From: a virus
IMG/VR virus record: IMGVR_UViG_3300034018_000246
Coordinates: 1 to 29,725 of that record
Reading direction: 5' to 3' (one strand)
DNA length: 29,725 nt
Shown: piece by piece, positions 433 through 5,129 of the stretch
Position numbering within the stretch: position 1 is the first letter of the stretch
How the letters are laid out: every line of letters begins with the position of its first letter
Made by a program: the position numbers and the translations under genes
The notes under the pieces: generated by a model
Told to the model about the DNA's origin: nothing
What the model saw: only the letters and a program-made list of their open reading frames with translations
The model's database searches: none

Positions 433-446
433 GGCTCGGCAAAGCC

Positions 447-489
447 AACCCCCTATCACTCGCACCTGAGAGCGTTGTCATAGGGGGTT
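447..489 (+). terminator. Strong hairpin, possible terminator
   Basis: A perfect 10-bp inverted repeat (AACCCCCTAT at 447-456 and ATAGGGGGTT at 480-489) encloses a 23-base loop. Only a short T stretch (TTTATAT) follows, so it is a weak intrinsic terminator or a structured RNA domain. A smaller hairpin (GGCT/AGCC, 433-436 and 443-446) lies just upstream. Loop bases 462-469 are exactly complementary to 529-536 in the adjacent tRNA-like RNA. Confidence 0.55.
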
Positions 490-494
490 TATAT

Positions 495-589
495 GGTCAG
501 GATGCGAAGTAGGGTAACGCAGCCATTATCAGGTGCTCCACTGTAAAGATATGAACAGGGCGCTGGGGGTTCGAGTCCTCCCCTGACCA
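495..589 (+). ncRNA. tRNA-like RNA with no normal anticodon arm
   Basis: Bases 495-501 (GGTCAGG) pair perfectly with 582-588 (CCTGACC) as a 7-bp acceptor stem. A textbook T arm sits directly before the 3' strand: stem 565-569/577-581 around the loop TTCGAGT. A D-arm-like hairpin is at 503-506/518-521 with GGG in its loop. A589 would be the discriminator; CCA is not encoded. The 43 bases between the D and T arms form no standard 5-bp/7-base anticodon arm. Possible alternatives are 524-530 with 548-553 (one bulge, 17-base loop), 541-544 with 555-558, or a bulged stem 519-536 with loop ATTATCA. At 95 nt it is longer than most tRNAs. It could be a tRNA with an insertion, a decayed tRNA, or a tRNA mimic. 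It ends two bases before an ATG. Confidence 0.5.
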
Positions 590-648
590 CAATGGAGAGT
601 CTAACAGCTCTCCTTTGTCATGTTAATAACTTTTATTATCTTAGCACC

Positions 649-879
649 ATGATAGGATATTTAACTCCATTAGTAATCTCCTGGTGGTTCACTCACTTTG
701 AACCATTACAGAACTATATAGATAACAAGCTCAACCTCCCAGATTGGCTACATACTTCACTTGGCTGCTGGAAGTGTCTCAGCTTCTGGGGGACTTGGGC
801 CTACTCACAATCATTCACTGTGGCTTGTGCCACATCACTCACAGCTGTATGCTTGAACAAACTGATATACAACTCATAG
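649..879 (+). CDS. Small membrane protein with CxxC-SFW motif
   Basis: From ATG 649 the protein has 76 residues: a hydrophobic N-terminal helix (MIGYLTPLVISWWF), a polar middle, then GCWKCLSFWGTW leading into a second hydrophobic stretch. The C-x-x-C-x-S-F-W pattern next to a membrane helix resembles DUF1360-type small membrane proteins. An in-frame ATG at 592, directly behind the tRNA-like RNA, would add 19 residues; I prefer 649 because it places the membrane helix at the N-terminus. The end overlaps the start of the next gene by 31 bases. The role is unknown; the Cys pair could bind a metal or form a disulfide. Confidence 0.6.
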   Translation: MIGYLTPLVISWWFTHFEPLQNYIDNKLNLPDWLHTSLGCWKCLSFWGTWAYSQSFTVACATSLTAVCLNKLIYNS

Positions 880-3638: not shown

Positions 3639-5129
3639 GCAATGACAATCATAGCAGAACCTCAAGATTTCACTCCTGCTTACAATGAGTGCAAGTTCAT
3701 AGTTAACTCAACTAATGTCAACAATGATGGCTTCCGATATATCTTTGAGATATTTGAGTCAGGCACAGCCAATAGGATAGGATACTATAAAGCATTACCA
3801 ACCTATGGCACAGGATATGGGGAGCAGGACTTGAGCAAGCTCTTGAGCAACATGGTAAGCTATGACTTCAATCCCACAATCACAACCTTTTATGATGCGG
3901 CTAACTCATACTATAAGTATGACATTAAGATTGGAGAGGAGTATATCTACACATTATCTTACACATCCTCATTAGTAAATAACAGTGGTAATGTTCGTAT
4001 CACAGCAACGCATGCTTTTCAAGTTGGTGATCAGATAAACATAACACAGGCAGATGGAGGTGTGGCCAACCCGGGAGTGGAAGGATTGCACACAGTGATT
4101 TCAATCACAGGTACAACCAACTTCACTATCAATGCGCTATGGTCAGAGGCAACAGATGCAACCATCAATGGGAGTATCAAGTATGCTGACAACAGGAAGG
4201 ATATTAACCTCAATGAAATTAGCACCTTAGATAAGTATGTATTTAATGGAGCTATTTCTTGGATAGATATGCCATTCTATGATCAGACTGACTACACACT
4301 TAATAACACATCTGGACTGTGGCTCACTGATCAACCTTTGAACTTTACATGTACACCGGGGCAGGACTTATGGCTCAATCTAAAAGACCCGGGTGTTGCT
4401 GCTCAAAAAAGAGTTTACTTTGCCAACAGTAATGGTGATGTATTCAGCAAGTCATTGGCAGGCAGTGACTATGTCAAGGGTGTGGCAGTTGGTCCTAATA
4501 ACTTTGGCACATTAGTATTGATAAGTGGAACTGCAGGATTGATTAAAGCAACCACTACATATTACGATATATGGTATGGTGATACTATTGTTGGTAATCA
4601 AAGCTCTATTAAGTATAGGATTGTATTAGATAAGAGAGTTCAAATCTCTGAGAGTCATATTTTATTCTTAGATAGGATGGGTTCATGGGGTAGCTTTGCC
4701 TTCCAACTTAAGAGCTATGAGAAGGGCACTATCAAGAGGGATACATACAACAAGGATGTCCCGGGATATGTTACCTCATCTCAATGGAAGTACAAAACTT
4801 ATGAACAAGGTCAAGTTAATTTCAACACTCAAGTAGTTAAGACATACGACCTCAACACTAACTGGATGAGTGAGGCAGAGGGTACATACTTTCAGCAGTT
4901 GTTAACTTCTCCACAAACCTATGTTAAAAACGTAGTCTATCGTATTACAGAGGACTTGGATAATCTTTATGATGAGAGTGGATGTATCATACATATCCCT
5001 GAGTCAACTGAGTATGTAAGCTGTAATGTGCTTAACACAAACTTTGAGGTATATAAGCAACGCAACAACAACCTAATCAAGCAGTCAATCCAAGTAAGGT
5101 TATCTAATAACGACATAATCAATGGTTAA
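3636..5129 (+). CDS. Putative minor tail / tail-tip protein
   Basis: 497 residues, beta-rich, no membrane segment. It opens with AEPQDFTPAYNECKFIVNST followed by FRYIFEIFESG, then long stretches of alternating polar/hydrophobic strands with many G/N/T turns. An inserted module at about 105-180 (VRITATHAFQVGDQINITQ...VEGLHTVISITG) has the look of a small beta-barrel. It is the first gene of the tail block, carries its own late-type motif, and overlaps the next tail gene by 8 bases. Position next to a large tail gene and the tape measure suggests a distal-tail or baseplate component. No catalytic motif is visible. Confidence 0.6.
   Translation: MAMTIIAEPQDFTPAYNECKFIVNSTNVNNDGFRYIFEIFESGTANRIGYYKALPTYGTGYGEQDLSKLLSNMVSYDFNPTITTFYDAANSYYKYDIKIGEEYIYTLSYTSSLVNNSGNVRITATHAFQVGDQINITQADGGVANPGVEGLHTVISITGTTNFTINALWSEATDATINGSIKYADNRKDINLNEISTLDKYVFNGAISWIDMPFYDQTDYTLNNTSGLWLTDQPLNFTCTPGQDLWLNLKDPGVAAQKRVYFANSNGDVFSKSLAGSDYVKGVAVGPNNFGTLVLISGTAGLIKATTTYYDIWYGDTIVGNQSSIKYRIVLDKRVQISESHILFLDRMGSWGSFAFQLKSYEKGTIKRDTYNKDVPGYVTSSQWKYKTYEQGQVNFNTQVVKTYDLNTNWMSEAEGTYFQQLLTSPQTYVKNVVYRITEDLDNLYDESGCIIHIPESTEYVSCNVLNTNFEVYKQRNNNLIKQSIQVRLSNNDIING

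Follow-up and report, generated by a model that had tools for sequence, protein, structure and literature searches.

A conserved tRNA-shaped RNA gene with a rebuilt centre in Bacteroidota phages

Positions 495-589 of a 29,725-nt stretch of viral DNA (positions 1-29,725 of IMG/VR record IMGVR_UViG_3300034018_000246; we refer to the whole stretch as the window) hold a real RNA gene, tRNA-shaped and conserved in Bacteroidota phages, that is neither a canonical tRNA, nor an allo-tRNA, nor a tmRNA. Since the element is tRNA-like with a rebuilt middle and no normal anticodon arm, it is probably a mimic rather than a reader of codons. The explanation that we favour, tentatively and with a probability of roughly 0.4, is that it would be a real phage-borne, non-canonical class II tRNA-like RNA that is processed and serves as a non-decoding tRNA mimic directed against a host tRNA-directed factor. 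The element, its parts and its surroundings are laid out as follows:

433-489, plus strand: two terminator-like hairpins (433-446, GGCU..AGCC; 447-489, with a 10-bp outer stem), from the fold (z -3.5) and relatives
495-589, plus strand: the whole tRNA-like RNA, acceptor to discriminator, from sequence, fold and shuffles (123 bits to CM R1)
495-501, plus strand: acceptor 5' strand GGUCAGG, pairing with 582-588; two of its pairs differ on both strands between variants
503-521, plus strand: D arm, (U)GCG-AAGUAGGGUAA-CGC(A), from sequence and fold
522-534, plus strand: anticodon-like hairpin with a 3-bp stem GCC/GGU and a 7-nt loop AUUAUCA, from the MFE fold and pair-keeping changes in L176
535-563, plus strand: long variable arm GC.CC.CUGU / ACAG.GG.GC with a 10-nt loop AAAGAUAUGA, from the MFE fold and variants
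565-581, plus strand: T arm GGGGG-UUCGAGU-CCUCC, from sequence; pairing probability ~0.95 in all variants
582-589, plus strand: acceptor 3' strand CCUGACC and discriminator A589, from sequence
594-644, plus strand: hairpin GGAGAG/CUCUCC (594-613) and promoter-like TTTG (614-617), 19-nt spacer and TATCTTAG (637-644), from relatives
649-879, plus strand: conserved downstream gene starting at ATG 649, from relatives

A first-pass annotation had proposed that an acceptor stem and a consensus T arm stand here in the right order and spacing, and that their joint occurrence by chance is very unlikely. Both points hold: as in a canonical tRNA, the acceptor is a perfect 7 bp, the T stem has 5 bp closing a UUCRANY loop, and the T arm (565-581) lies directly against the 3' acceptor strand (582-588). 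A pattern scan that required both a perfect 7-bp acceptor and, joined to it, a 5-bp T arm with a consensus loop hit the window at 495-589 alone; when the whole window was shuffled 400 times with dinucleotides preserved, no shuffle contained the combination. The D loop (AAGUAGGGUAA) has A14, G15, G18G19 and A21; position 8 is A rather than U in all four sequence variants that we describe below, and CCA is not encoded at the 3' end of the window copy. ARAGORN reported no tRNA and no tmRNA in the window, Rfam gave no match there at gathering level, and a permissive Rfam search of the window returned only a meaningless 10-bit match.

Exact-pattern scans of IMG/VR and of phage relatives revealed the same RNA in 14 other IMG/VR records, i.e. 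15 with the window (L016 and L154 are one contig and were counted once). The copies fall into four sequence variants, the W, L155, L159 and L176 types. Type W (the window, L113, L154, L095, L105, L109, L136 and L145) is identical at 95/95 positions; type L155 (L155-L158) carries A1-U72 and a D loop longer by one U; L159 and L160, which make up type L159, have two further changes in the variable arm; and the L176 variant has the acceptor AGUCGGG/CCCGACU together with changes in the centre. These variants occupy three phage contexts, namely the window lineage, a distant Flavobacterium-phage-like lineage and an apparently crAss-like contig on which the element adjoins tRNA-Lys(UUU). The TerL of the L155- and L159-type phages is ~33% identical to that of the window, and the L155 terminase shares 54.6% identity with its counterpart in Flavobacterium psychrophilum phages, while the large set of portal, terminase and tail genes gives L176 a crAss-like appearance. 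Conservation of the whole RNA far exceeds that of the flanking genes: the W and L155 types are identical at 93 of 95 shared positions, whereas the neighbouring proteins that they share are 29-39% identical. Relaxed patterns (loops, flanks of the centre, D and T arms) yielded no new family member beyond L176 among the matches listed, INPHARED phages and PLSDB gave no relevant blastn match, and the CM had no match in four Bacteroidota phage isolates; the 73 matches to GGTCAGGATGCGAAG were set aside as mostly chance. Separately, the matches listed include viral tRNAs whose anticodon region carries a long insert (L371, L362 and L365); the L371 tRNA, CGGTGAT...ATCACCG, has ~27 nt inserted after the loop CTTATAA.

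Where the first-pass annotation allowed that homologous phages might show no conservation of the stems, the homologues keep them, and the covariation that it proposed looking for is seen in two compensated acceptor pairs (G1-C72 to A1-U72 and A5-U68 to G5-C68), with every helix substitution keeping its pair. In the class II fold described below, all 108 cells pair across the four variants, and 8/8 substituted helix columns keep pairing, the two acceptor pairs by changes on both sides and four other columns by changes on one side; sliding the partners lowers pairing to 36-57%. The anticodon-like stem of L176, for example, changes from G-U to G-C and from C-G to U-G with pairing kept. The covariation shuffle control is moderately exceeded (25/500, with four sequences), and outside the acceptor all substitution support is one-sided. 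Because there are only four variants, covariation in the centre is weak.

The 43-nt centre (522-564) contains no 5-bp stem with a 7-nt loop, and to this extent the earlier description of a centre that cannot form a standard anticodon arm stands. A structureless centre, on the other hand, does not fit the MFE fold of W, a class II cloverleaf with a 3-bp anticodon-like stem and a long variable arm, which is also the best predicted fold common to the variants. The variable arm (535-563) exceeds 10 nt and has its own stem, as in the Leu/Ser/Tyr class II scaffold, and its 8 pairs are kept in all variants. An alternative centre, a pseudoknot formed by 527-530/548-551 (UAUC/GAUA) and 532-538/558-564 (GGUGCUC/GGGCGCU), likewise pairs in all variants; the class II fold accounts for more of the substitutions, and both fit all variants. 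Compared with shuffles, the centre alone folds better only in L176 (p 0.034), with p ~0.2 for W, L155 and L159.

In L002-L081 the element is present in one slot-covering relative and missing from 16, and 20 near-complete relatives gave no match. A CM search of three draws of ~395 Bacteroidota genomes (~1,190 draws), for which viral records served as positive controls, gave no strong match, with ordinary tRNAs in one draw and nothing at E<=1e-10 in the others. Since the element is absent from slot-covering and near-complete relatives and has no strong match in these genomes, we regard it as an accessory phage gene. An identical 3' part in a host tRNA had been put forward as a finding that would reduce the element to an att remnant; no cellular copy was found in the Bacteroidota genomes searched. 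A scan of genome contigs with GCGAAGTAGGGTAACGC for a host copy or att remnant retrieved only a different Flavobacteriaceae repeat and chance matches.

Could the element be a working tRNA of odd shape? It would be a class II tRNA with a short anticodon stem and the loop AUUAUCA, reading AUA through the anticodon UAU, or GAU through AUC, as ARAGORN has it on L176. We consider this unlikely, even though the L176 copy, which lies beside a tRNA-Lys(UUU), is accepted by ARAGORN (as tRNA-Asp), the D and T arms are standard, and U33 is present in the predicted fold of the anticodon-like loop. A canonical anticodon arm combines U33 with a 5-bp stem, a 7-nt loop and a purine at 37, whereas the element has 3 bp at best, C at 37 and A at 8. 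ARAGORN finds no triplet anticodon in the other three variants, which at reduced thresholds yield only a 4-base one; the Rfam tRNA score of the L176 copy, 18.8 bits, is below the cut-off of 29 bits, and the window copy has none. Because U8 is lost, the stem has 3 bp, position 37 is C and a triplet is called only in L176, ordinary decoding appears unlikely from the sequence. The allo-tRNA architecture does not fit either: acceptor and T stems of 8/4 or 9/3 bp are expected and the element has 7/5, the next pair, A502/C581, being unable to form. At 95 nt, with none called by ARAGORN or Rfam, it is no tmRNA.

When CM R1 was run against Bacteroidota, ordinary tRNA-Tyr(GUA) and tRNA-Leu matched end to end at 36-40 bits, with the family itself at ~116-123; these matches would be consistent with class II descent, which is likely, while a Tyr origin is a lead rather than a result. 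The D-arm motif GCGAAGY is frequent in phage tRNA-Tyr, tRNA-Leu and tRNA-Cys, mostly Tyr, among the matches listed in a search biased to this motif. G1-C72 is the identity pair of bacterial tRNA-Tyr (PMC9976931), and position 1-72 is G-C in W only and A-U in L155, L159 and L176. The heptamer CUGUAAA at 541-547 is the sequence of a tRNA-Tyr anticodon loop and has no closing stem in the best fold.

A tRNA-Tyr(GUA) with an insert would present this heptamer as its anticodon loop on the stem UAUC/GAUA and carry ~10 surplus nt (AGGUGCUCCA), either tolerated or removed. Its loop is identical to that of the host tRNA-Tyr, the likeness to this tRNA extends to the D arm, T arm and 3' end, and L159 alters position 32 only (C to U). 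We nevertheless find this reading doubtful: the fold presenting CUGUAAA as a loop closed by UAUC/GAUA was rejected as ~11 kcal/mol worse than the MFE, in every variant CUGU is also a paired part of the variable arm, and the heptamer match may be chance. Moreover, no bacterial splicing of such inserts is known to us.

The first-pass annotation also offered, side by side, a degenerate phage tRNA and a tRNA mimic. The homologues and the compensatory acceptor changes speak for a tRNA-derived or tRNA-mimicking phage RNA, while the retention of every arm makes degeneration the less favoured reading. A functionless degenerate tRNA or drifting remnant could explain the non-standard centre and the patchy presence in relatives; with stems intact in all variants, two acceptor pairs compensated, and an RNA that differs at so few positions between the W and L155 types while their proteins diverge, it is quite improbable.

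The surroundings bear on how the element is expressed. The upstream terminator-like hairpins, of which that at 447-489 is strong and which recur 3' of accessory genes in relatives, end 5 nt before the element in the window, and because of this its expression in the window lineage is uncertain. The stem sequence of the 433-489 hairpin, which follows the accessory genes of the slot, varies among relatives around a near-constant inner CACTCGCACCTGAGAGCGTTGTCA. In L155 the element directly follows a small ORF, and in L176 it may be read as following a TAACTTTG box. Downstream, the 594-613 hairpin and TTTG-19-TATCTTAG, which we take to be a Bacteroidota-type promoter-like sequence, are kept in relatives whether or not they carry the element. 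The ATG that lies 2 bases after the element, to which the first-pass annotation drew attention, is a coincidence: judged by the relatives, ATG 592 is a chance in-frame extension rather than a gene start, because the promoter-like sequence persists without the element and an extra C in L014, L019 and L026 puts the region before 649 out of frame (CACCCATG). The proposal that processing sets the 5' end of the downstream mRNA falls as well, since relatives without the element keep the gene, the promoter-like sequence and the start at 649; with a promoter-like sequence and a start of its own, the gene does not need the RNA to define its mRNA. Note that the -7 box ends 4 nt before ATG 649 (window 637-649), so the late operon may start as a leaderless mRNA.

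These surroundings also leave little room for a cis-acting element at which RNase P/Z cuts part the upstream accessory transcript from the late operon and the freed RNA has no role. Such a role would suit the window lineage, where the element always lies between the HTH regulator (with a variable small gene) and the late operon promoter, as well as its place after a small ORF in L155. It is nonetheless highly unlikely, as most relatives are without the element at the same site, the gene downstream comes with a promoter-like sequence of its own, and the conserved loop AAAGAUAUGA is not needed for a cut site. Least probable of all is that a host tRNA gave rise to the element as a recombination or att site: extra genes do start directly after the element in L136 and L145, with an attC-like inverted repeat, but no identical cellular tRNA was found, there is no integrase among the window proteins scanned, and the whole RNA is present rather than a 3' fragment.

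Several neighbouring features were observed in the other records. The attC-like inverted repeat (CTAACG...GTTA) lies directly after the tRNA-like RNA at L136:4094-4175 and L145:4664-4725, followed by an extra gene, which in L145 is DNA methyltransferase-like; L136 has an Rfam DUF805b match at 4189-4221. A second structured RNA adjoins the tRNA-like RNA upstream in L176 (4465-4599) and downstream in L155 (minus strand, ~10376-10240), and is also present in L157. Its pattern is CCCKAAGUACAMGGGAWCGUA ... CAAAGUURGYAACUCUUU ... AAAAGUURCA, with GYAACU/AGUURC and CCCGAA/UUCGGG versus CCCUAA/UUAGG as compensatory changes by eye; it had no Rfam match. At L155:4866-7773, genes like FolE, QueE, QueD and QueC and one for a DpdA-like protein follow one another, which by our reading suggests 7-deazaguanine DNA modification.

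As a non-decoding tRNA mimic, the element would be transcribed as part of a longer phage RNA, released by host RNase P and 3'-processing, and supplied with CCA; the freed RNA would then work without decoding. Its elbow and acceptor would let tRNA-handling proteins bind, and the rebuilt centre would alter the outcome. The likeliest use would be to occupy or resist a host tRNA-directed factor in infection, e.g. a defence nuclease that cleaves tRNAs or a class II tRNA synthetase; the element is linked to no gene for defence or for a synthetase. The variable loop of tRNA-Tyr is the site at which PtuAB of retron-Eco7 and a Septu system cut, a defence that phage tRNA-Tyr overcomes (PMC11555353, PMC13096335). 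Because rescue by the phage tRNA-Tyr required its anticodon as well as intact stems, i.e. decoding and not a decoy (PMC11555353), it is a precedent for the setting and not for a non-decoding decoy. More speculatively, and with clearly less confidence, the copies may belong to a phage sRNA family that joins a tRNA elbow and acceptor to a pseudoknotted or kissing anticodon domain (UAUC/GAUA and GGUGCUC/GGGCGCU), acts as anti-defence mimics without decoding, and is exchanged between unrelated Bacteroidota phages.

Surveys of phage tRNA genes usually tally them by anticodon; most copies of this element escape the standard finders, although unrelated phages conserve it. Should it be a non-decoding mimic, it would be a concrete case of a phage keeping the tRNA body for a use other than codons, and would bear on the tRNA-centred arms race exemplified by retron-Eco7 and Septu. 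We found no existing description of such an RNA in the open literature searched, and a 95-nt RNA is open to direct testing.

Among known systems, the phage tRNA-Tyr of T5, SP15 and T6 share with the element a class II scaffold and phage carriage, and many phage tRNA-Tyr among the matches listed share its GCGAAGY D arm; that of T5 resists cleavage through a distinctive variable loop (PMC13096335). However, those of T5, SP15 and T6 possess a normal anticodon arm and presumably act through decoding (PMC11555353), whereas the element is longer and has no readable anticodon arm. Allo-tRNAs, especially allo-tRNA(UAU) and the irregular tRNA-like genes of soil metagenomes, likewise have an odd cloverleaf, a long variable arm and UAU in the loop, and some copies are unused in translation and thought to be tied to mobile elements (PMC7609411); they differ in their 8/4 or 9/3 acceptor/T stems, against 7/5 here, and in their bacteria. 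The tRNA-like domain of tmRNA also has an acceptor and a T arm without an ordinary anticodon arm, but the element has a D stem and, at 95 nt in total, no space for a pseudoknot ring and tag. Finally, the tRNA-like structures of the plant viruses TYMV and BMV, the latter without a Tyr anticodon, are likewise viral mimics of the acceptor with a rebuilt, possibly pseudoknotted remainder (PMC9976931); those structures end genomic RNAs and have no ordinary cloverleaf, whereas the element is a separate small RNA gene of a DNA phage with real D and T arms.
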